From: Fidelibacterota bacterium
GTDB lineage: Bacteria; Fidelibacterota; Marinisomatia; Marinisomatales; JAADGP01
Direction: 5' to 3'
Length of the DNA stretch: 39,616 nucleotides
Assembly (NCBI GenBank): GCA_027021785.1
Contig: JALUTR010000211.1
Location: 1 to 39,616 of the forward strand
Under the pieces are notes generated by a model, which saw nothing but the letters and a program-made list of their open reading frames with translations, did no database searches and was not told where the DNA came from. Positions 21,690-37,762 of the stretch are shown here, one piece after another. Every line of letters starts with the position of its first letter. Positions within the stretch are counted from its first letter, which is position 1. Position numbers and translations under genes: made by a program.

Positions 21690-22127
21690 TCAACCTTCCG
21701 GCAGTTTCACGGTATTCAACCAAAAGTTCTCAATGGAATCCACGACATCTATAAATTGATCAAAATCGATCGGCTTAAGAATATAACAATTACCGTGAAG
21801 GTCATAGACATTCCTGATATCGTCTTCGGCCTGGGAAGTGGTAAGAACTATTACCGGGATTCGTTTTAAATTACGATGTTTCTTAATTTCCTCGAGTACT
21901 TCCCGGCCGTTTCTCCGCGGCAAATTCAGATCAAGAATAATAAGATCCGGGCGCGGGGCATTATTATATTCATCAAGTTTATAAAGAAATGTCAAGGCTT
22001 CATCCCCGTCCTTCACAACACTCAGATTGGGTTTTATTTTTCCTACTTTAAATGCTTCCAAAGTTAATCGCACATCTCCCGGATTGTCTTCCACAAGTAA
22101 GATATGCACCGGTTTATTGTTAGTCAT
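21690..22127 (-). CDS. Rcp1-type response regulator
   Basis: 145 aa; HILLVEDNPGDVRLTLEAFK...LIILDLNLPRRNGREVLEEIKKHRNLKRIPVIVLTTSQAEDDI...YILKP. Confidence 0.93.
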   Translation of the reverse strand: MTNNKPVHILLVEDNPGDVRLTLEAFKVGKIKPNLSVVKDGDEALTFLYKLDEYNNAPRPDLIILDLNLPRRNGREVLEEIKKHRNLKRIPVIVLTTSQAEDDIRNVYDLHGNCYILKPIDFDQFIDVVDSIENFWLNTVKLPEG

Positions 22128-22246: not shown

Positions 22247-25200
22247 CTAAAGATTTTTCTTATCCAATGGCGGTAAGGTAAAATAGAATGTTGTCCCCTT
22301 TCCCACCTCTGATTCCAACCATATTTTACCCCCATGGCGTTCCACAATTTTCTTGCAGACAGCCAGACCGATCCCCGTTCCCGGGTATTCATTACGTGTA
22401 TGTAAACGTTGAAATATCACGAATATACGATCTTTATACTGGGATTCGATTCCGATTCCATTATCTTTTACTGAAACAACCCATTGCTCATTTTCAAGCT
22501 TGGCGCTGATATGGATTTTAGGGTTTTCCTTACTTCTGAACTTAATGGCGTTCCCAATTAAATTCTGGAATAACTGCCCTAATTGGATTTCATCCGCGTA
22601 TACCGTAGGCAACGAATCGTATATAACTTCCGCATTATTCTCTTCAATCGAAACTTTCAGATCTTGGAGTGTTTTCTTTAATACAACATTACAATCCGTA
22701 GCCTCAAATGGTTTGCCACGTGTACCGATTCTCGAAAAAGTCAATAAATCGTTGATCAAAATCTGCATCCGTTTGACACCCTCAACGGCGTACCTTATAA
22801 ACTCATCGGCTTCCGAATCGAGTTTTCCTTTATACCGCCTTGCCAATAACTGCGTATAACTGCCTACCATCCGCAGCGGTTCCTGCAGATCATGAGAGGA
22901 CACGTATGCAAATTGTTCCAATTCCCTGTTTGATTTTGCGAGTTCCTCAACAGTTTTTCTCAATGTTTCTTCGGCTCGTCTTCGTTCCACGGCCTCCAAG
23001 GCCAATGAAACCGTCGAAGCAACCGCGGCGGCAAAGTCCTGCTCCTCCAATGTCCATTGCCGGAAAGTCCCCACGTGCCCATGACAAACGATACCCACGA
23101 CCTCCCCGTGCAACCAGACAGGAACATCCATTACGGAATTAATCCCAAACTCCTTGAAATAAACCTCGGACAGTTCCTTGGTCCGGGAATCGGTATGTAC
23201 ATCATATACTGCCATGATCCGACTCTCCATTAAAGCTCTAAAGTACCCGGGGTATTGCTTTACATCGAGCTTAGCTCCTCTCTCATGCTTTCCCAGGTCT
23301 ACCCTAAATAGATCCTGACAAATAAACTCCGTTCGATCTTCATTGAAAAGCCAGATACTGACTCGTTCCACATTCAATGTCCGGCCATCGACCTCGGTCA
23401 CTTTCTTTAACAATAAATTAAGGTTGGAAATATCAAGTTTTGACAATTCCAAAAGGGCTTCTGTCCGTACAAGATGTTGCCGTTGTTCCTCTTCGATTCT
23501 CTTCTTCTCCGAAACATCCCTCAGAGACGTAATGATCGCCTTTTCTCCATTGTATACGGTCATTGCCAATGTCATTTCCGCCGGGAATGATTCCCCATTC
23601 TTCCTTCGATACCATATCTCGAATTTTTCGGAACCTTCCCGGTGTATCCGGCTGATATAATTCTCAAAATCCGTAATTGTGTTTTTACTTGAATCCATTA
23701 ATCGCACCAACGGCTGGTTGATCAGGTCAGGCTGTTTATAACCGAATATCTCAACCAATGCCGGATTTACATCCACGATTTTCCCTTCTTTATCGAGAAT
23801 TATTATCGCATCCGCGGTGCTGTTAAACAACTTTCGATAGTTTTCCTCGGATCTCCTGATCCGATTAAACATCTCGGCATTTTTCAGCGCATTGGATATT
23901 TGCGCGGAAAAAACCGGAAGGGCGGGCAGAAAAGGCTTTATTGAATCCCTGGATAACAGGATAATCGTACCGATAATCCTGTTATCCAATATAATCGGTG
24001 TATAAACCGACTGATCGACATTGATAATGCTGATAATCCTTGTTGCAGCCGGTTTTGCTATTTTCGGAATAAAATAACCGACGGACTTGATAGGGTCGTC
24101 CAACGCCAATATGGGCACTTCCTTTTCAATCATTTCTTTTAATTGAGGAACACGATCAACCTCAATGATAAAACTGTCTTTCCTGATTCCGGTGAGACTT
24201 TCCAGGATTTGCAATAATTTTTGCGAAAACGAAAAATGCTCGATCCAGGCTATTTTCTGATCTTCGGAGAAACGAAGAACGATATTCTGCAACCCCAGCT
24301 TCTCCAGCTCCTCCGTCATTGTCAGATAAATCTCATCGGGGGAAAGTAGTGTTTGCACTTTCGTCGCAACCGCACTGATCGAGGACAGGATATCGGAAGT
24401 TCTTTTCTGAGTGGTAATATCGATAAAAGAGACCACGCATTTTTCGGTTCTTGGCAGCATTGTCAGGAAGATTAAAACATCCTTTAATTTCCCCTCCAGG
24501 TTTCTCAGCTTGGTTTCGTATTTGAAGGGTGAATGTTCGGGCAGTTTTCGCTGGAGTTGATAATATTCTTTCATCATTTCCAGGTCTTCACGGTTCGCAA
24601 AATCCGTCCATTTCAGCATTCCGCCGCTTCCACTCGTCGGATGTCCCACGAGCTTTTCGAATTCCGTATTGGCCATCGAAACAGTCATATCCTCTTCTAT
24701 AATGGCTATGGCTGTCCCCGTTGACTCAAAGGTGGTTCGATATTGCTCCTCACTCTCTTTAAGTTCCTCTACTTTCTGATGCAGACTGGCGTATAAATTT
24801 TCAATTTTTTCCATTGATTCCATCAACGCCTTATTCCTCTCCTGCTCGAAGAGGATACTGGAATTTTTACCGAACAAATTTTTATAATCGATACTGCGAC
24901 CGATGAAATATCCCAAAAGGGGAATGGCTATCCCAATCATTACTTTTATCGCCAACGGAATCGATACATTAAGAAATACCAGGTGAATAATCAGAAGGAC
25001 AAAAAAGCCGCAGACAATACCAACTATACCAAAAGATCTCCCCGGTTTATTACCCCACACCAATTCGTAAATACAGGATTCCGCCCCGTCGGCAGCACAT
25101 TGTATTTCCTTTATATCGGCAAGCGGCAAACCCCATAAAGTAGGAACCGAACATAAATGGCCCTGCATATTCAGGCAATTGTTCCTGTTTTGTTTGTATC

Positions 25201-25651
25201 CTTCTTTAATAAACCGTGCTTCAATCTTGATCCTGTTTTTTCCCAGTTCAATAATATCGTATCGACCAATTTTATTGAACTTGGGAGCTGTGCTGACGAT
25301 TAATTTATAGGCTGAACCGATCGTACCGAAAGACACATAAATAGTTCGTAATATTTTCCACAACCCCTTTTGGCTTGCATTGGTTCCCGCTTTAAAAGGA
25401 GCCCTGGGATCATTCGTATATTTCACCAGTTCCTCGAGAAGATGAACCATGTAGTCGTAACTTATCCAATTATCCTCATCTTCAAGATATTCCAGTTGCA
25501 TCCCTGTATTCAGAATGAAATTTTCAAGTTCGTTACCCCCATATTTTTCTTTAAAATACGAAAGCAGGGAACCAACTACGCGGCAGTTGAGCTCCATTTT
25601 CATCTTATCCGGGGAGATTACAGACATTTCCCATTTATCAGATCGCCGCAT
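22247..25651 (-). CDS. Membrane sensor histidine kinase: Cys-containing N-terminal sensor, 2 TM, PAS, GAF-like, PAS, GAF, HisKA-HATPase
   Basis: 1134 aa; N-term CLNMQGHLCSVPTLWGLP...CAADGAESCIYELVW, TM IVCGFFVLLIIHLVFL and IGIAIPLLGYFIG, AYVSSHDLQEPLRMVGSYTQLLARRY, DNGIGI, GTGIGLAVCKKIVERHGG. Confidence 0.92.
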   Translation of the reverse strand: MRRSDKWEMSVISPDKMKMELNCRVVGSLLSYFKEKYGGNELENFILNTGMQLEYLEDEDNWISYDYMVHLLEELVKYTNDPRAPFKAGTNASQKGLWKILRTIYVSFGTIGSAYKLIVSTAPKFNKIGRYDIIELGKNRIKIEARFIKEGYKQNRNNCLNMQGHLCSVPTLWGLPLADIKEIQCAADGAESCIYELVWGNKPGRSFGIVGIVCGFFVLLIIHLVFLNVSIPLAIKVMIGIAIPLLGYFIGRSIDYKNLFGKNSSILFEQERNKALMESMEKIENLYASLHQKVEELKESEEQYRTTFESTGTAIAIIEEDMTVSMANTEFEKLVGHPTSGSGGMLKWTDFANREDLEMMKEYYQLQRKLPEHSPFKYETKLRNLEGKLKDVLIFLTMLPRTEKCVVSFIDITTQKRTSDILSSISAVATKVQTLLSPDEIYLTMTEELEKLGLQNIVLRFSEDQKIAWIEHFSFSQKLLQILESLTGIRKDSFIIEVDRVPQLKEMIEKEVPILALDDPIKSVGYFIPKIAKPAATRIISIINVDQSVYTPIILDNRIIGTIILLSRDSIKPFLPALPVFSAQISNALKNAEMFNRIRRSEENYRKLFNSTADAIIILDKEGKIVDVNPALVEIFGYKQPDLINQPLVRLMDSSKNTITDFENYISRIHREGSEKFEIWYRRKNGESFPAEMTLAMTVYNGEKAIITSLRDVSEKKRIEEEQRQHLVRTEALLELSKLDISNLNLLLKKVTEVDGRTLNVERVSIWLFNEDRTEFICQDLFRVDLGKHERGAKLDVKQYPGYFRALMESRIMAVYDVHTDSRTKELSEVYFKEFGINSVMDVPVWLHGEVVGIVCHGHVGTFRQWTLEEQDFAAAVASTVSLALEAVERRRAEETLRKTVEELAKSNRELEQFAYVSSHDLQEPLRMVGSYTQLLARRYKGKLDSEADEFIRYAVEGVKRMQILINDLLTFSRIGTRGKPFEATDCNVVLKKTLQDLKVSIEENNAEVIYDSLPTVYADEIQLGQLFQNLIGNAIKFRSKENPKIHISAKLENEQWVVSVKDNGIGIESQYKDRIFVIFQRLHTRNEYPGTGIGLAVCKKIVERHGGKIWLESEVGKGTTFYFTLPPLDKKNL

Positions 25652-25745: not shown

Positions 25746-26900
25746 CTACCGGCCCATCCGCTTTCTTGCTTCTTCATTAAAATGATGTATCTTTTCCGCT
25801 ATCTCTATTTTCGGCGTCATGAGTTTAAATGCCTTGGCAAACACGGGGCTCAATATACGATTCCGATGTTTCATATACATGTACAAGGGCACGAGATGGG
25901 CGCCAAGGTCCAGTTTGTTATGATAAGTTGTGATCCCATATTCAACATTATCCAATTTTTCGTCGATACCTAATTTTACCGCCTGATAATATATATTAAA
26001 GTATATTTTATATTTCTCATTCAACTCATAATCTATACCCAAATACAACGGCCTCAGCGTTTTATCATCGATCAGAAATAACCCGAAACCGATAACGGCA
26101 TCGTCTTTTTTAATCAGCACTGCTTTGGAACGATTCCCCAGGCAGATATCCATATTCCGAAAATATTCCACGGTGAGAATTTCCCGACGATATTCCGTTG
26201 CTTTGTCGTAAACATTTTGCCATAGTCTGACAAAATCCTCGGCATATTCGGCAAATTCCCCGGTTACCTGGACCGATATCTCTTCACAGGAAAGCATGTC
26301 AATTCTTTTAGTGAACTCCCTTCTATACAAGGCTTTAAAACTTTTTAAATAATCCTCAAACGATTCCCAATAAATTGGTAACATCGTGTCGGGTAGATTC
26401 TCAACCTTGCTATATCCCGCGTCCTCAAGACAACCGAACAGTTTCAGCTCTTCATCAACAAAATCTCTCAATAATATTAATCCACATTGTTGAGTTTCGG
26501 CGATTTCTTCCATTTTCGCGGCAAATTTTATTATGACTTCCTTTCGGTCGATGTCGTCACGAAATGAATACGTGTTACCAAGAGCCACCGGCGTGCCGCA
26601 TTCGAAAAGTTTAAGAATCAGAAAACCGGGGAAAACGTTCCGTATTGAATCTATAATTTTTTTGGAAATACCCTGTGCGAAGATCGCCAGATCGAAACCT
26701 ATTGAATATGTGCATGTGTGGGCAACGATTTCATTATTCAAATAGGCCACCAGATAAAAATAATCGCAATCATTTATATTTGAACGCTCAATAGCCTTCA
26801 GGTACTGATGACTACAAATAATCTGATCTTCCCCGACAATTGCATTCCAATCTTTCTCCTCCACATCCGTAACACTTTTGAAAACCTTTATTTCCATCAT
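25746..26900 (-). CDS. GNAT/FemAB-like N-acyltransferase family protein
   Basis: 384 aa; DYLKSFKALYRREFTKRI, AVIGFGLFLIDDKTLRPLYLGIDYELNEKYKIYFNIYYQAVKLGID, GAHLVPLYMYMKHRNRI; GGAGA ribosome-binding site. Confidence 0.75.
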   Translation of the reverse strand: MMEIKVFKSVTDVEEKDWNAIVGEDQIICSHQYLKAIERSNINDCDYFYLVAYLNNEIVAHTCTYSIGFDLAIFAQGISKKIIDSIRNVFPGFLILKLFECGTPVALGNTYSFRDDIDRKEVIIKFAAKMEEIAETQQCGLILLRDFVDEELKLFGCLEDAGYSKVENLPDTMLPIYWESFEDYLKSFKALYRREFTKRIDMLSCEEISVQVTGEFAEYAEDFVRLWQNVYDKATEYRREILTVEYFRNMDICLGNRSKAVLIKKDDAVIGFGLFLIDDKTLRPLYLGIDYELNEKYKIYFNIYYQAVKLGIDEKLDNVEYGITTYHNKLDLGAHLVPLYMYMKHRNRILSPVFAKAFKLMTPKIEIAEKIHHFNEEARKRMGR

Positions 26901-26953
26901 CTCTATATCTCCGTTAAATACTCCAATAATATCTTTCTCTCGTTATCGGTTGG

Positions 26954-28210
26954 TTAAATGATTCCGAATTCCTTCCCGACCTGTTCCATGATGGTGAGCG
27001 CATCGTCCATATCCTGTTTCCGATGAGTCGCCATCAAACACACACGAAACCTCGCTTTATTTTTCGGAACTGCCGGGTATGGAATCGGGCTTATATATAA
27101 ACCCAGTTCGTTAAATCTTTTACCCATCTTCCTCAGTGTCAATTCCTTACCGATAAACACCGGTAGAATCGGGGTATAAACATCCGGTAGATTATACCCC
27201 ATTCCCCTGAGATGACTGTGCATATATACGGCGTTTTTTTTGAGCTTTATGATCATTTGCGGTTCCTCTTCGATCACATCGAGCGCAGCCAGGGCGCTTG
27301 CCTCAACGGAGGGAGGAAGATTGGATGAAAAGAAATATGAATGCGCAAAGTGCCTGAGGTGGTTTACCACGTCCCTGGACGACGCGACAAATCCGCCCAC
27401 ACCGGCTAACGCTTTGCTTAGTGTTCCCATGATAATATCAACTTCTCCGATCATATCGAAATAATCGCACGTTCCCCGACCATTGTTCCCTATCACACCA
27501 ATGGCATGGGCCTCATCAATCATTACCCGCGCGTTGTATTTTCGTGCAAGTTCCATAATCTCCGGCAACGGACATATATCGCCATCCATACTGAAAACAC
27601 CGTCAGTGACGATCAATTTCCCGGCATATTTATCGCAACTTCTCCTCAGTATATTTTCAAGATGGCTCATATCACGGTGTCTGTAAACCCTATAGTCACC
27701 TTCCGATAAACGACACCCGTCAACAATGCTGGTATGATTGAGCATATCGCTGATTATCAAATCACCTTTTCCGGCCAAAGCGGAAAGGGTGCCCACATTT
27801 GTTGAATATCCATTTGGAAAGACAACGGCATCCTCACAACCAAGAAACATCGCGAGTCTCTTTTCCAGTCTCCTGTGAATTTCCGTCGTGCCGCTTAATA
27901 AAGCGGCTCCCCCACTACCAGTGCCAAACTCCTCGCAAGCCCTTATTGCCGCGGCAACAACCTTCGGGTGCGTAGTCAAACCAAGATAATTATTGGACCC
28001 CATCATGATTACTTCCCGCGGTTTACCCGATTTTTCTTCAACAATATTCACACGGTTTTCACAGGGAGTGGCAAGAACCTTTTGGTATATGTAATAGCCT
28101 TTCCTTTTATAATCATCAATATATTCCAGACTTGGTCCGGTCTTCGCGAAAATATCCTTGTCTGATAATTCTCCGAAATCAGCGAGTGTATAATTATCCG
28201 AATTGATCAT
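26954..28210 (-). CDS. Alpha-oxoamine synthase (KBL/BioF/serine palmitoyltransferase-like), PLP-dependent
   Basis: 418 aa; MMGSNNYLGLTTHPKVVAAAI, GTGSGGAALLSGTTEIHRRLE, DEAHAIGVIGNNGRG, GTLSKALAGVGGFV (PLP Lys); AAGGAGAG ribosome-binding site. Confidence 0.92.
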   Translation of the reverse strand: MINSDNYTLADFGELSDKDIFAKTGPSLEYIDDYKRKGYYIYQKVLATPCENRVNIVEEKSGKPREVIMMGSNNYLGLTTHPKVVAAAIRACEEFGTGSGGAALLSGTTEIHRRLEKRLAMFLGCEDAVVFPNGYSTNVGTLSALAGKGDLIISDMLNHTSIVDGCRLSEGDYRVYRHRDMSHLENILRRSCDKYAGKLIVTDGVFSMDGDICPLPEIMELARKYNARVMIDEAHAIGVIGNNGRGTCDYFDMIGEVDIIMGTLSKALAGVGGFVASSRDVVNHLRHFAHSYFFSSNLPPSVEASALAALDVIEEEPQMIIKLKKNAVYMHSHLRGMGYNLPDVYTPILPVFIGKELTLRKMGKRFNELGLYISPIPYPAVPKNKARFRVCLMATHRKQDMDDALTIMEQVGKEFGII

Positions 28211-28256
28211 AAGTACTCTCCTTGCGTTTATTTATCTCCAATTGATTTTCTTGTTA

Positions 28257-28275
28257 TGCGGCACCTTCCGCCGCA
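28257..28275. other. Hairpin tgcggc-N7-gccgca in the leader of the alpha-oxoamine synthase gene
   Basis: Perfect 6-bp GC-rich stem about 47 bp upstream of the start; no T-tract on the minus strand. Confidence 0.35.
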
Positions 28276-28431
28276 ACACCGGGTGTATATGTTTGTATTA
28301 ATTTTTCATACATAATTTCGATCACTAAAATCACTTCAGCCATTTGCGGTAATTTCACATTTAACAAACAGAATTTCCGTTTAGTGCGGCCGTCCGGTAC
28401 TATCCGTGTTTCTGGTGAACGGGGCTTATTT

Positions 28432-29529
28432 TCAGCTTCCTTTCTCTAATATCTTGATCGTCGCCAATGCCACGTCCACATCATACAGTTTTTTCAGGTT
28501 TTTCCTTAAATGGTTTATCATAAATGTATGTCCGTACACGGTTTCCCTTTCGACTTCCTTAGCCCTGGAAAACAATATCCTGTATGTATCATCAGCAACA
28601 CTGATAATCCTGGAAGGGAGAGGAATATTGGTCCCGCAGACACCACGGGGGCCGGATCCGTCAAAATGTTCCAATTGGTATCCGATAATCTTTGCGATCA
28701 AACCAAACCCGGGCATTCTTTTAAGCACTTGTTCCCCCAGGATTGGGAAACGATAATATTGTTTTAATTCTTCGTGACTAAACATACCAAGCGGTTTTTC
28801 GGTATAGATATCCGGCAACAGGATCAACCCGATATTTTTCAGATAAGCGGCAATCCTGACGGCGTTCTTTTCCTGTTCCGGAAGATTCATCATTGTTGCT
28901 ATCTTGGTTGAAAATTCCGCGACCCATTGACCGTTCTGAAAAAGTTTCTGATTTTTTATCTTGATCAATGATGCTAAAAACGAAAAAATCGTCTTAAAAT
29001 TTTCCTGCTTGAGAGCTATCCTCTTCTCGTTTTCAGCCAAAAGCATCTGTATTTCCGCTTCCCGCTCTTCCAATTGGGTATGCAGGATTTCCAAATCGGA
29101 TTTTGCGTCTTTATAAACATCACGCGAACCAATCAACTTTTGCGTTTTCTCTCTTTCCCTGAAATAGTCAACCGCATCCATCACAATCGACACAAATTCC
29201 TCGGGATCACAAGGTTTAATCAGGAACCGGAATACCTGCCCCACATTAATCGCCTTGAGCATCATGTCCTGTTCCGCATAACCGGTCAGAATCAACCTTA
29301 TCGTGTCGGGAGAAACCTCCTTTGCCTGTTCGACCAACTGAAGTCCGGTCATACGGGGCATTTTATGATCAGTTACCAAAACCGTTATGGGTTGCGACTT
29401 TAAAATGTCAATCGCTTTTTGGGGATCGGTATTTGTAATGACTTCTACCGGATAAGCCTCAAAAAGTCCGCCGTACTCTTCTAATATATCCTCCTCGTCA
29501 TCGACAATCAGAATCTTATGCTGGTCCAT
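28432..29529 (-). CDS. REC + degenerate HD-GYP-like protein
   Basis: 365 aa; ILIVDDEEDILEEY...VTDHKMPRMTGLQL...FLIKPC; C-terminal AAYLKNIGLILLPDIYTEKPLGMFSHEELKQYYRFPILGEQVLKR...IGYQLEHFDGSGPRGVCGTNIPLPSRIISVAD. AGGAGG ribosome-binding site. Confidence 0.88.
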   Translation of the reverse strand: MDQHKILIVDDEEDILEEYGGLFEAYPVEVITNTDPQKAIDILKSQPITVLVTDHKMPRMTGLQLVEQAKEVSPDTIRLILTGYAEQDMMLKAINVGQVFRFLIKPCDPEEFVSIVMDAVDYFREREKTQKLIGSRDVYKDAKSDLEILHTQLEEREAEIQMLLAENEKRIALKQENFKTIFSFLASLIKIKNQKLFQNGQWVAEFSTKIATMMNLPEQEKNAVRIAAYLKNIGLILLPDIYTEKPLGMFSHEELKQYYRFPILGEQVLKRMPGFGLIAKIIGYQLEHFDGSGPRGVCGTNIPLPSRIISVADDTYRILFSRAKEVERETVYGHTFMINHLRKNLKKLYDVDVALATIKILEKGS

Positions 29530-29623: not shown

Positions 29624-30802
29624 TCATCCGACAACCAGTTTTTCCATGTTTGACATTTTGGAGGGATATTTGGGAAACATCAGTTCAAATATTGTTCCCA
29701 CTTCATCCTCAACGGTAAAGGAAACATTCCCATCGTGTCTCACCATTATCTGTTTCACCACGTGCAATCCCATACCGGTACCTTTTACCGCCGATTTGGT
29801 GGAGATAAACGGATCGAATACCCGGTTACGAATTTCCGTGGGAATCCCCCCTGCCCAGTCCTTGACATATATACAGTGTGCATCATCATTCGTTGATGTA
29901 TAAACAAAAATTTTTCTTTCCGTTTCCGCTTCCGGCTCCTGTTCTTTTTCCAGATATGCGTCCCGCGCATTAATGAATAAATTCATAACGACCTGGGCAA
30001 TTGAGCTCCGGTTACAATAAATGGCAAAATCCGCGGGGATATCCAGTTCGACCTCGATTCCCTGCTTCGATAACTGTTTTCCAATCATACTCATCACCGT
30101 ATTCAGAATATCCGACAACGAACATCTATCAAAAATTTCGTCCGCTTTCACATAACCCAACAGGTTTGTGATAATCGAAGACATATAGTTCGTTAACTGG
30201 TCCATTTTCTCCAACTTTTCGAGCAGTGTTTCCGCTGTTAAAGAATTATTATTTTGCATTTGCCTTAAATTGCTTATGCTGAATTTGAATGTCTGGAGAG
30301 GTTGGTTCAATTCATGGGCAATGCCGGCCGCCAATGTTCCGATGGTACTCAATCGTTCGGACTCCGAAGCTTTGGTCAAAGCATCCTTATGATCCAATTC
30401 CGTTCTTTTCCGTTCGATGGCATAGCGTATGGCACGAATTAACAAATGACTATCCACCTGCCCTTTTACAAGATAGTCCTGAGCACCGGCCTGGACGGCT
30501 TTGACCGCTATTTCCTCGTTATTTAGACCTGTCAGAACGACAATCGGAAGATCCGGCACATGTTCATGCGTCTTGTTAACAGTCTCCAATCCGTTGGCGT
30601 CGGGCAATGATAAGTCCAATAGAATCAGATCATAGTCGTCCTTATCAGTCAGCTTCAAAGCATCTTCCAGATAATCGGTGTGTGTCAAATCAATATTCGA
30701 AGAACCGGCGTCCTTCAAAAACTCCCGAAATAAACGCGCATCACCGGGATTATCCTCAACCAACAATATTTTTATCACATCATTTCTGGTAGCTTTCATC
30801 AT
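29624..30802 (-). CDS. REC-HisKA-HATPase histidine kinase (start revised from 30904)
   Basis: REC ILLVEDNPGDARLFREFL...LLDLSLPDANGL; HisKA TLAAGIAHELNQPLQTF; HATPase GTGMGLHVVKQI. ATGA overlap of its start with the upstream kinase stop. Confidence 0.9.
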   Translation of the reverse strand: MMKATRNDVIKILLVEDNPGDARLFREFLKDAGSSNIDLTHTDYLEDALKLTDKDDYDLILLDLSLPDANGLETVNKTHEHVPDLPIVVLTGLNNEEIAVKAVQAGAQDYLVKGQVDSHLLIRAIRYAIERKRTELDHKDALTKASESERLSTIGTLAAGIAHELNQPLQTFKFSISNLRQMQNNNSLTAETLLEKLEKMDQLTNYMSSIITNLLGYVKADEIFDRCSLSDILNTVMSMIGKQLSKQGIEVELDIPADFAIYCNRSSIAQVVMNLFINARDAYLEKEQEPEAETERKIFVYTSTNDDAHCIYVKDWAGGIPTEIRNRVFDPFISTKSAVKGTGMGLHVVKQIMVRHDGNVSFTVEDEVGTIFELMFPKYPSKMSNMEKLVVG

Positions 30803-33800
30803 ACCCCCTGTGTTTTCGGAATAGAGAAATAAAATGTCGTACCGATTCCTAACTCCGATTCGAACCAAATTTTTCCTCCGTGGCGTTCCACAATTTTCTT
30901 GCAAACGGCTAATCCGATCCCGGTACCGGGATATTCATTAAGGGTATGGAGGCGTTGGAAAATCACAAAAATACGATCCTTATATCTGGGTTCTATTCCG
31001 ATTCCATTATCTTTCACCGAAAACACCCATTGCCCTTTCTTTTCTCCGGCCCCGATATGGACCCGGGGCGGTTTGTTATTTCTGAATTTAATCGCGTTGG
31101 AAATCAGATTCTGAAATAACTGCCCTATTTGTACGCCGTCAGCCAATATGGTCGGTAATGTATCGTAGGTCACAACAGCATTACTTTCCTCAATCGCTAA
31201 TTTCAAATCCTGGAGTTTGGCCTCAAGTATTTCCGCACTGTTGATCTGGGTGAATGGTTTTCCCCGGGTCCCAACCCGTGAGTAAATCAACAAATCATTG
31301 ATCAAAGTCTGCATCCGTTTAACCCCATCCAGGATATAATCGATGAATTCATTCGCGTCTTCATCCAGATGATTTTTATAGCGACGGGCTAAAAGTTGTG
31401 TATAACTTCCCACCATGCGCAGCGGCTCCTGCAAATCGTGGGATGCGACATAGGCAAATTGTTCCAACTCGGCGTTGGAACGTGCCAAATCCTCGGCAGT
31501 CCGTTTCAACTTTTGTTCCGCTTCTTTCCGATCGGTAATGTCGGTATGGGACCCGGCCAGCTTCAAAGGGTTGCCCTGCTCATCTTTCATTACGAAACCA
31601 CGACACTCAATCCAAATGTAATTATTCGACTTGGATCGCAAACGGTATTCCAGGGAAAAAGAAGTGTCTTTCCCTGAAAGGTGTTTATCCCAGATCTTTA
31701 ATACGCGTTCCAGATCATCAGGATGGATCAGATCGCGCCAGGCTTCGAACGTATTTTTAATCTCATTTTTCCCATAACCCAACATCCTTTTCCACCGGTC
31801 GGAAAAATAGGTTTCCCCACTCTTGAAATCCCAGGTCCAGATACCATCTTTTGTACCCCGAACCGCCAACGAAAAACGCTCCTTGCTCTCGCGCAGGGCC
31901 TGTTCCGCCAATTTCTGTTTGGTAATATCGATTATTATACCACGTAATTTTCCTATTCTGTCATTCTTGTCTTTTACGAAATGCAATATATTACGGACCC
32001 AAACAACCCGTCCATCGGCGGCGACTGTTCGGTACACGTACTCATGATCCGTTCCGTTCCTTACGCTTCTTTCAAAATATCTGGTTGCCGTTTTACGGTC
32101 ATCGGGATGGAGTATCGCTTTCCAGAAGTCGGGTTTTGTTAACCATTCATTAATCGGATATCCCAATATTTCTTCCGCCTTTTGGCTCACAAATGTGAAC
32201 CGCCCACTCTCTATATCCGCTTCCCATACGATCGCGTCAATGCCTTGCACAAGATCCCGGTAACGCTTTTCACTTTCAACCAAAGCTGCTTCGATTTTCC
32301 TCCGTTCGGTTACATCCGATCCAAAAGTCATTACACCTACAACCGCTCCGTTTTCAATGATCGGTATTTCGGTTACCAATAATGTGATGACGTTGCCCCG
32401 CCGACTTGAAATTCCAAGCTCAAAAGTGTAAGTCTCATGTTGTTTAATAACATTGACAAAGCAATTCCTGGCTTTGGACTGGTCCTTTGAACTGATATAA
32501 TTGGTTATATTTTTCCCTAATAAATCATCGGTATCATATCCCATCATTTCACTTCCACGACGATTTATGAAAGTGATGTTCCCCTCCAAATCCGTTGTCC
32601 AAATCAGATCATGCGATGTTTCGACAATGGTACGATACTTTTCCGCACTTTTTTCAAGCTCTTCCCCGGCCCGCTTGTGTTGGATCGCATTGGTAAAGAT
32701 TTCGCCGATAATATTTATTAAACGAATTATCTCATCTGACCATGACCTTTCGACGCGCACCGAATCGAAACCCAAAAACCCGATCAATTTTCCGACATAA
32801 ACCATCGGCGCGACGACAAGCGACCGGATATTCTGATCATCAAGGATTGCCTTTTCCCTTCCCGCCTCGGGTGGGAGATCGGCGACACGCGGAATTACTA
32901 TTTCCTCGAAATTGTTCAGTTTTTCCATCCACCATGGAAACATTTCCACCGGTAATTCCTGTAAATTATCTATCTCCGGCCGAATTCCATCGGCACACCA
33001 CTCATGGGTATTGCTTATTCTTTTCCCATCATTGGATAATAAAAAAATGTAACTCCTGTCTATTCCGGTAAATTCACCGATGGATTCCAGCGCGGCATTA
33101 ATTCCATTTCCAATATCTTCCACGGGCAGGTTAATAAAATAGCTGGATATTCTCCCTATCAGTTGCTCGAGTTGCATCCTGTACTCCAGAGCATCGATTG
33201 CCCGTTTTCGTTCCGTGATGTCATACATGTGACAAACAATATAATCCGCAAGCCCCCCCGACATTTCCACCGGTCCCAGCATGATCTGATAAGTATCACT
33301 GCCATGCAGACTTCTTACTTCAAATTCATGGATCCCCCCCTCAACGAAACAGGCATTAATCTTTTCCTCGAACAATCCCCGATCTTCGGGATAAATATCA
33401 TCGAAAACACGCGATGTTATCAGAAATTCCAATTCCTCCTGTCCCACCGCCGGGTTCATATCCAGTATCCGACCTTCCTGATCCAGGAGAAAAATATAGC
33501 TTGGAGATGATTCGACAACGGTCCGATAACGTTCTTCGCTTACAAGCAATGCCTCCTGGACCCGTATACGGGCCAGGGCCCCACCACATTGATTCGCAAA
33601 TGTTTGTAACAATTCGAGGTCCTTTTTGTCATAACGATCAGGCACATAACTCTGAACGGAGAGTATACCTACCGCCTGATCCTTCCACAACACGGGCACA
33701 AACATCAGTGAGCGGGACAGTCTTTCCTTATCCCCGAACCGTAGATTTTTTCTTCCCTGCGATCTTTTTTTACGATTGATTAACAGGGGTTTGCCTTCCA

Positions 33801-34962
33801 GAACTTCCTGATTCCTTTCCGCCGTCAGAGAATAACTTCGTGTGGGAACAGCCTCCGGCTCATCCTTTCCTGAAGGGGTGTCCTCATTATAAAGACCGAC
33901 CAAAGTGTTCTCCGCTCGATCAATCAAATCGAAGGAAAATGCATCGTGATGGAATAATTTCCTTGATTCCTCCGCCACTATTTTCCCGACCTCTTTCAGA
34001 GTCAGTGGCTCGGTCAACCTTCTGGATAACCTCTGGATAACCTCCCTTTCCTCTTCGGCTTGATTCCGCTCGATGACACGACCAAGTTGAGCCCCTATAT
34101 GAGACATAACACCCATTAAATGCTTATCCGGTTCCACAATATCCGTTGAAAAAAATTCCAGAACACCCACAACTTTTTCCCGAATTAATACGGGAAAACC
34201 GAATCCTGTTTTTATTTTAACAACTTCAATAAATTTCGTCCTTGGATATCTTGGGTCTTTTCGTATACCGATGACCCAAACCGGTTTACCGCTCTGTAAT
34301 ACCCGGCCGGGTAAACCATCACCAACGGTAAATCTGGTGTCCTCAGTTACCTGTTTGAAAGCCCGGAATCGTTCATGATCGTCCAGATACCAGATTTTCG
34401 TGGATTGGAGTAAATCAGGATGGTTACTGTCAACCCTATAAACATGACCGACAGGCCATCCCGTTAAAGAACATACATTATCGACGCAAACCTGGAATAC
34501 TTCCTCAACCGTTTTCGCGTTACTCGCGGCCATTGCAATATTTTGCAATAATTCTTTGTAAGCGATCTCCTTTTGTAACGATTCGTGGATAATTTTTTGT
34601 TTTGCGATTTCCCGAATCACGATTGTATAATACTTTTCTTCCTTCATCTTCCACAATGAAATGGTAAGTTCTATCGGGATTTCATTTCCGTTCTTTCCAA
34701 GGCCGATCAACTCAACGGCCTTGCAGGATAGTTTTGATTTTCCCGGCGAAATCGCTTGTCTCATTAACCGTTCGGGGATATCCCGATATTTATCGGAGAT
34801 AATAATAACCAGAGGTTTACCGATTATTTCATCCGCGGAATATCCGAAGACCCTCTCAGCCATGTTGTTCCAGAAAATGATATTTCCTTTACAATCGACG
34901 GAAACGATAACGTCGGCGGCGGATTCGACAATGGCGCGGATATGATCCTTTTTCAACAACAT
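30799..34962 (-). CDS. Large multi-PAS/GAF sensor histidine kinase (soluble)
   Basis: 1387 aa; several PAS (VDCKGNIIFWNNMAERVFGYSADEIIG; TDLEGNITFINRRGSEMMGYDTDDLLG; WDFKSGETYFSDRWKRMLGYGKNEI) and GAF domains, AYVASHDLQEPLRMVGSYTQLLARRY, GTGIGLAVCKKIVERHGG. Confidence 0.95.
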   Translation of the reverse strand: MLLKKDHIRAIVESAADVIVSVDCKGNIIFWNNMAERVFGYSADEIIGKPLVIIISDKYRDIPERLMRQAISPGKSKLSCKAVELIGLGKNGNEIPIELTISLWKMKEEKYYTIVIREIAKQKIIHESLQKEIAYKELLQNIAMAASNAKTVEEVFQVCVDNVCSLTGWPVGHVYRVDSNHPDLLQSTKIWYLDDHERFRAFKQVTEDTRFTVGDGLPGRVLQSGKPVWVIGIRKDPRYPRTKFIEVVKIKTGFGFPVLIREKVVGVLEFFSTDIVEPDKHLMGVMSHIGAQLGRVIERNQAEEEREVIQRLSRRLTEPLTLKEVGKIVAEESRKLFHHDAFSFDLIDRAENTLVGLYNEDTPSGKDEPEAVPTRSYSLTAERNQEVLEGKPLLINRKKRSQGRKNLRFGDKERLSRSLMFVPVLWKDQAVGILSVQSYVPDRYDKKDLELLQTFANQCGGALARIRVQEALLVSEERYRTVVESSPSYIFLLDQEGRILDMNPAVGQEELEFLITSRVFDDIYPEDRGLFEEKINACFVEGGIHEFEVRSLHGSDTYQIMLGPVEMSGGLADYIVCHMYDITERKRAIDALEYRMQLEQLIGRISSYFINLPVEDIGNGINAALESIGEFTGIDRSYIFLLSNDGKRISNTHEWCADGIRPEIDNLQELPVEMFPWWMEKLNNFEEIVIPRVADLPPEAGREKAILDDQNIRSLVVAPMVYVGKLIGFLGFDSVRVERSWSDEIIRLINIIGEIFTNAIQHKRAGEELEKSAEKYRTIVETSHDLIWTTDLEGNITFINRRGSEMMGYDTDDLLGKNITNYISSKDQSKARNCFVNVIKQHETYTFELGISSRRGNVITLLVTEIPIIENGAVVGVMTFGSDVTERRKIEAALVESEKRYRDLVQGIDAIVWEADIESGRFTFVSQKAEEILGYPINEWLTKPDFWKAILHPDDRKTATRYFERSVRNGTDHEYVYRTVAADGRVVWVRNILHFVKDKNDRIGKLRGIIIDITKQKLAEQALRESKERFSLAVRGTKDGIWTWDFKSGETYFSDRWKRMLGYGKNEIKNTFEAWRDLIHPDDLERVLKIWDKHLSGKDTSFSLEYRLRSKSNNYIWIECRGFVMKDEQGNPLKLAGSHTDITDRKEAEQKLKRTAEDLARSNAELEQFAYVASHDLQEPLRMVGSYTQLLARRYKNHLDEDANEFIDYILDGVKRMQTLINDLLIYSRVGTRGKPFTQINSAEILEAKLQDLKLAIEESNAVVTYDTLPTILADGVQIGQLFQNLISNAIKFRNNKPPRVHIGAGEKKGQWVFSVKDNGIGIEPRYKDRIFVIFQRLHTLNEYPGTGIGLAVCKKIVERHGGKIWFESELGIGTTFYFSIPKTQGV

Positions 34963-36892: not shown

Positions 36893-37762
36893 TCACCCCT
36901 TCAGATACGGAATTGATTTTGCAGCCTTCTTAACCATTGGTAAGGTAACAAATTTTGATTCCTCACTCATGGCCTGCATTAAGGAGAATGTTGCCAGATG
37001 GTTAATCGGTCGTGGTATCCCGCGTGTAATCTCATAAATCTTCTTTATTGTTTCGGAGGGAAATATTTCCTTCCCCAAATAACCAGCTTTTTGCAACCGA
37101 TGGATAAGATAATCCCGGATTTCTTCCTGGGTGAGCGGATTTAAAGTTGCCGTAAATCGAATACGTTGTAAAAATGCCCGGTAATATTTTCGCTGCAACC
37201 TTTTCCCCAATTCCGGTTGTCCAAATAAAACCAGGGAAAGTAAATTTTGTTTGTCTGTCTGAAAATTGCTCAACAACCGTAATTCATCAAACACGGCTTT
37301 CGAGGGAATCATATGAGCTTCATCAATAATCACTACGGGAAAGATTCCTCTTTCAAATAATGTTGCTAATCCGGTTTGGATTTGATTTATAATGTCATTT
37401 TTATAGTAACGGGGCTCATCATTAAAGAGTCGCCGATAGATTTCCTTCAACATTCCCGTGGCAGTCAATCGGGGATTAATGATGCAACAGACCCGGTATT
37501 CTTTTTCCGGTAAATAATCAATCAGGCACCGGGACAATACCGTTTTCCCGGAACCGACTTCGCCAATGACCAAGGCCATTTCGTGTTGCTCAACAGCATA
37601 TATAATCCATTCCAGTATTGTTGCGTGATTGTGACTGGAATAATAGTATTCCGGGTCAGGTGTAAGTCCGAACGGATCGGAATGCAGACCAAAAAAATCA
37701 GCGTAAATACACTTTCCGTCGTTTAAAGTTTGCTGCATCGTATCGCCATCATTTTTATCCAT
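36893..37762 (-). CDS. ExeA/GspA/MshM-like AAA ATPase
   Basis: 289 aa; FFGLHSDPFGLTPDPEYYYSSHNHATILEWIIYAVEQHEMALVIGEVGSGKTVLSR, VVIIDEAHMIP, FGQPELGKRL, GIPRPINHLA. Confidence 0.92.
   Translation of the reverse strand: MDKNDGDTMQQTLNDGKCIYADFFGLHSDPFGLTPDPEYYYSSHNHATILEWIIYAVEQHEMALVIGEVGSGKTVLSRCLIDYLPEKEYRVCCIINPRLTATGMLKEIYRRLFNDEPRYYKNDIINQIQTGLATLFERGIFPVVIIDEAHMIPSKAVFDELRLLSNFQTDKQNLLSLVLFGQPELGKRLQRKYYRAFLQRIRFTATLNPLTQEEIRDYLIHRLQKAGYLGKEIFPSETIKKIYEITRGIPRPINHLATFSLMQAMSEESKFVTLPMVKKAAKSIPYLKG

Follow-up and report, generated by a model that had tools for sequence, protein, structure and literature searches.

The window, by which we mean the whole 39,616-nucleotide stretch of Fidelibacterota DNA analysed here, encodes on its minus strand a PLP-dependent alpha-oxoamine synthase (AOS; 26954-28210, 418 aa) of an apparently PigH-like, secondary-metabolism lineage and, across a gap of 53 bp (26901-26953), a co-directional FemAB_like/GNAT-fold acyltransferase (PF04339, hereafter FemAB; 25746-26900, 384 aa). 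The two open reading frames had been predicted from the sequence 53 bp apart, and both are present at exactly these coordinates with Pfam matches above the cut-offs. The genes probably form an operon, and the 221-bp non-coding gap upstream of the AOS (28211-28431, minus strand) is the likely promoter site of the unit; promoter matches within this gap were not above chance. GC content is flat across both genes, giving no signal of foreign composition.

The remaining genes on either side of the pair confirm the sensor-kinase surroundings described in the original prediction. A sensor histidine kinase of 1134 aa (22247-25651) starts 94 bp past the FemAB gene, and a stand-alone response regulator receiver, a candidate partner of this kinase (21690-22127), lies another 119 bp on, all on the same strand. 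Flanking the pair on the other side, also on the minus strand, are a response regulator with an HD_5 output domain (28432-29529; NosR-like, below cut-off), a receiver-histidine kinase hybrid (29624-30904) and a large PAS/GAF sensor histidine kinase (30799-34962). Most other genes of the window are flagellar, chemotaxis or two-component genes (Pfam). Flanked by chemotaxis and glutamate dehydrogenase genes, the frame at 36893-37762 encodes a homologue of the XrtA/PEP-CTERM-type ATPase that scores 195 bits against a cut-off of 324. Next to the pair there is neither an exporter gene nor one for an ACP. Lacking, as predicted, are genes for biotin synthesis and threonine degradation among the open reading frames scanned with Pfam, a set that includes only part of the small or overlapping frames.

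The AOS translation contains both GSNNYLGLTTHPKV and GTLSKAL and matches Aminotran_1_2 above the gathering score (E 4.8e-58, Pfam). The active site is intact, with the PLP lysine K265 and H158, D231, H234 and R388, all invariant in A2. By NCBIfam the enzyme is about equidistant from the serine palmitoyltransferase (SPT), KBL and BioF models and falls under all cut-offs. The SPT models NF047600, NF047599 and NF047603 score 405.5, 335.3 and 273.8 bits (cut-offs of 640, 500 and 670), and the BioF model TIGR00858 scores 395.8 bits (cut-off 426). The closeness of the BioF and KBL scores to those for SPT would be in keeping with an ordinary metabolic role as a paralogue of BioF or KBL, an explanation that we nevertheless find barely credible. 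Approximately unbiased (AU) tests place the enzyme in neither clade (p 0.034 for BioF and 0.033 for KBL). In the organism's own genome (3.22 Mb, 99% complete), contigs other than this one carry two further AOS genes. There, a threonine dehydrogenase-like gene is directly followed by KBL (contig C265), and no bioB was found over the cut-off, the sole weak match being 76 residues at a LipA-like gene. The genome thus holds a threonine-degradation pair away from the window and, at the cut-off used, no match for bioB, and both identities were rejected.

With its gene next to that of a sensor histidine kinase, the AOS-superfamily enzyme resembles CqsA/CqsS and LqsA/LqsS, which had been offered as one precedent. 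Were the enzyme an alpha-hydroxyketone synthase of this type, its acyltransferase neighbour would be unrelated to its function. We consider this very unlikely. The CqsA/LqsA model NF005526 gives 210.3 bits where the cut-off is 428, well short of the SPT, KBL and BioF scores, so membership of that family is not supported; the lineage is different, and the system has an extra component, a FemAB partner that is repeatedly fused or paired to an AOS (see below). The sensors also differ. CqsS has a membrane sensor domain, whereas the window kinase has a V4R-like/PAS/GAF sensor region.

In a tree of 118 AOS sequences, the window enzyme falls inside a nine-member group (SH-aLRT 93) that also holds the AOS of a Bacteroidales UBA1035 locus (L092), PigH enzymes, the AOS of two further loci (L075 and L087), a Phocaeicola plasmid AOS and a Streptomyces AOS. 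In a more careful tree of 36 rows it stays with L092, L075/L087 and PigH (89/86), and AU tests do not reject its grouping with L092 or with PigH. The trees place the enzyme among AOS of secondary metabolism such as PigH, the closest characterised-type group. It shares with the AOS domains of PigH, here taken from full-length plasmid matches, an N-terminal extension and an NRxxIxxExxGxxRE segment. This placement would suit a reading in which the FemAB transfers an aminoacyl or acyl group to a natural product built on an AOS core, an antibiotic or pigment-like compound of the prodiginine/tambjamine kind rather than a signal. Unlike PigH, however, the enzyme has no fused ACPs, and near the pair in the window there are no PKS, NRPS, ACP, pyrrole or transporter genes. 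We regard this reading as improbable.

L075 (2672-7197) and L087 (2406-10120) represent an operon conserved in two distant genomes, with UbiA-like, radical-SAM, lipid-kinase-like, AIR-synthase-like, old-yellow-enzyme-like, AOS and SDR genes (families assigned by eye); it looks like an undescribed lipid pathway, and its AOS groups with that of the window. On the human gut Phocaeicola dorei plasmid pBdorCL06T03-4 (L189, 4986-6940), a full-length AOS gene is directly followed by one for a TetR regulator, with no FemAB. Viral contigs yielded no relatives of the window AOS.

The second precedent was the bacterial sphingolipid pathway of Caulobacter and E. coli BL21 (SPT, CerR/KdsR and bCerS), in which an AOS works with an N-acyltransferase acting on an aminoketone, the chemistry that we propose here. 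N-acylation before reduction has been discussed for that pathway, and the E. coli BL21 gene yghO was named as an aca/bCerS homologue (PMC9386255); in BL21 it shares its neighbourhood with spt (L237). The window FemAB has no detectable homology to YghO (BLASTP E 0.27; HHalign probability 0.5%), which itself has no Pfam match and hence lacks PF04339, and a ceramide synthase identity was rejected. Likewise, both SPT sets are rejected for the AOS (AU p 5.1e-4 and 2.7e-5). Thus, the precedent stands as an analogy of chemistry and fails by homology. No YghO-like gene was found in the organism's own genome, in a search run without a positive control. In two other loci (L178, 4889-9889, and L018), a FemAB homologue has B12-radical-SAM-like genes as neighbours together with a gene resembling that of the ceramide synthase YghO; in L178 the product of this last gene is 32% identical to YghO.

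The organism may nonetheless make sphingolipids by a separate route. On contig C120 (L016, 5917-9235), genes for a CFB-like SPT (526 bits, cut-off 640), a 3-ketodihydrosphingosine reductase-like SDR (330 bits, cut-off 400) and a cyclopropane synthase occur in a row, which suggests sphingolipid production. This bears on the possibility that the product of the pair is a structural membrane lipid, a sphingolipid-like or capnine-like N-acyl aminoketone, with the kinases as bystanders or envelope regulators. Such a role is consistent with the best PDB matches of the AOS, which are SPT, with its retention of the LMATH motif region of CFB SPT, and with the lipid-like clusters around several of its relatives (L075, L087) and around the Nostoc and rhizobial relatives of the FemAB described below. 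We judge it unlikely, if less so than a natural product, as the genome already has an SPT and ketosphinganine-reductase locus, the AOS lies outside SPT, the FemAB is not bCerS, no reductase, ACP or head-group gene adjoins the pair, and neither the congener nor any other sampled member of the phylum has the pair.

The FemAB matches PF04339 at 59.3 bits (gathering cut-off 27; E 4.7e-16), a family found in only two of 14 control genomes; its AlphaFold model is of low confidence (pLDDT 30). Searches found no relatives in phages and only distant ones on plasmids, and the single protein used as a query against genome contigs gave no match. Across the 245 genomes sampled from the phylum, distant homologues occur in only three others, none seen adjoining an AOS; the congener has none. 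Nor do these genomes hold any near relative of the window AOS, the best match being at 49%. In other bacteria, FemAB homologues accompany other PLP aminotransferases and lipid genes, and PF04339 relatives in Nostoc and rhizobia sit among desaturase and Cfa-like genes. These associations would fit the acylation of an amine that has just been formed, in a family that also includes enzymes with other functions. One rhizobial plasmid cluster (L008, L009), downstream of a response regulator and a sensor kinase, encodes a class III PLP aminotransferase, an arginase-like protein, a desaturase, a PF04339-type GNAT, a Cfa-like synthase and two SMR-like transporters. A plasmid of Nostoc sp. C052 (L007, 1671-15918) encodes a nitric oxide synthase oxygenase, a desaturase, a class III aminotransferase, a FemAB-type GNAT, a formyltransferase and a DevBCA exporter.

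The functional link between the two genes is indicated by their recurrence elsewhere. We identified 12 proteins in Bacteroidota that unite AOS and FemAB, in both domain orders. A FemAB-profile search of 344 Bacteroidales genomes recovered five, one with FemAB before AOS (L155, 793 aa) and four of the opposite order (L165-L168), and a search of 396 Bacteroidota genomes added seven of the AOS-FemAB order (L220-L226). In L092, which came from a scan of named genomes, the genes for AOS and FemAB overlap, with a TetR gene lying divergently beside them; a large N6-methylase/helicase gene lies next to this pair, and one of the same kind adjoins fusion L225. Counting as linked modules both fused and adjacent genes, our definition here, they comprise the window, L092, L155, L174-L177 and L220-L226. 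The acyltransferase of the window and the FemAB half of L155 are sisters in the FemAB tree (SH-aLRT 93), whereas their AOS partners do not group (AU p 0.003), and thus the two enzymes came together, or had their pairing renewed, on more than one occasion. That one acyltransferase lineage repeatedly pairs with different AOS lineages is strong evidence that the two enzymes act in sequence. The fusions and the overlapping pair bear out the co-occurrence anticipated for these genes, leaving the idea of a functional pair well supported, and we consider it very probable that they form one biosynthetic unit. A FemAB gene alone does not imply such a module, since the Bacteroidota search also returned many stand-alone homologues with no AOS nearby. 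No full-length fusions were found on plasmids, and our search of the open-access literature, to which it was confined, found no relevant paper on AOS combined with FemAB, DUF7793 or RteC.

The kinase downstream of the pair has a V4R-like N-terminus, two predicted transmembrane helices, and PAS, GAF, HisKA and HATPase domains. The V4R match of its N-terminal 200 residues is marginal (E 0.1, Pfam). Fold matches of this region (low-confidence model, pLDDT 52) are to H-NOX, TRAPP and DmpR, none significant (best E at least 6.8e-3); we take these folds to be all of one ligand-binding superfamily. Three cysteines, Cys159-x25-Cys185-x7-Cys193, have the same 26/8 spacing as the DmpR zinc cysteines 151, 177 and 185, a spacing reached in 0.2% of shuffles. 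The ligand glutamate lies two positions off (Glu182, three residues before Cys185, versus DmpR Glu172, five before Cys177). The region (25052-25594, minus strand, about residues 20-200, ahead of the helices) is thus possibly a V4R-like ligand-binding domain with DmpR-type zinc-site spacing, as in the aromatic sensors DmpR, MopR and XylR, from which the protein differs in its histidine kinase output and in the glutamate position. It was not found in 40 relatives of the kinase, the congener's included, and so shares the patchy distribution of the AOS-FemAB pair; plasmids yielded no relatives of it.

Sensory genes also accompany the fusions. All 11 of the AOS-FemAB order are adjoined by a gene for a SpoIIAA-like DUF7793 protein, divergent in most, and by a kinase or PAS regulator. 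Four have a HisKA/HATPase kinase after DUF7793, three of these being PAS-HisKA-HATPase; that of L174, a locus with its genes all in one direction, is HisKA-HATPase-REC with no recognised PAS. The other seven have a regulator of about 305 aa of HAMP-PAS-AraC type (in L220, by Pfam, HAMP E 0.011, PAS 0.0013 and AraC-type HTH 1e-13). Among 70 unselected AOS loci, a kinase, PAS or REC gene occurred within two genes in two and DUF7793 in none. The 11 fusions form one related clade, so their neighbourhoods are not independent events, and L155, nearest to the window in its FemAB, stands beside no kinase or other sensor. In the window itself, with its many signalling and chemotaxis genes, a kinase neighbour is less surprising.

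On the opposite side of the fusion, five of the seven loci with the 305-aa regulator encode an RteC-like protein, confirmed with Pfam for L220 (1.4e-61); the other four were identified by eye. RteC regulates excision of CTnDOT-type elements. The fusions of L220-L226 stand between the DUF7793/PAS-AraC type regulator pair and RteC-like or HTH genes, and possibly lie inside conjugative elements.

That separate genes of the window are fused in other bacteria beside sensor proteins suggests the joint making of a small fatty molecule, so far undescribed and possibly a chemical signal. We predict from the chemistry of the two families that the AOS would carry out the decarboxylative condensation of an acyl thioester and an amino acid, of which serine, glycine and alanine are the probable candidates, to a 2-aminoketone, and that the FemAB-fold enzyme would then move a second acyl (or aminoacyl) group onto the new amine to give an N-acyl aminoketone. 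This product would most likely be used as a small lipophilic signal or regulatory lipid, and its likely receiver in the window, by a second step of reasoning, would be the kinase 94 bp downstream, through the V4R-like domain. Taken whole, we hold this scheme to be evenly balanced, and the signal role on its own has slightly less than an even chance. Of the sensing link originally proposed, the sensory connection is plausible, given the V4R-like kinase and the sensors at the fusions; sensing of the product by the adjacent kinase, also plausible, goes a step beyond these neighbourhoods. A wider and distinctly more tentative proposal is that AOS and FemAB together make N-acyl aminoketone signals of a family not yet described, for which cognate sensors exist (the V4R kinase here; PAS kinases and PAS-AraC and TetR regulators in Bacteroidota), and that some of these systems lie near RteC-type conjugative-element regulators and control mobile-element transfer.

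If correct, AOS plus FemAB N-acylation would constitute a third biosynthetic logic in AOS-based bacterial chemistry, with receivers built in, and would offer a testable route to signalling molecules of Bacteroidota and uncultured phyla; small-molecule signalling could then be linked to the transfer of conjugative elements. Whether or not a signal is involved, the recurring fusion gives PF04339 enzymes, the function of which is mostly unknown, a partner and a likely substrate class.
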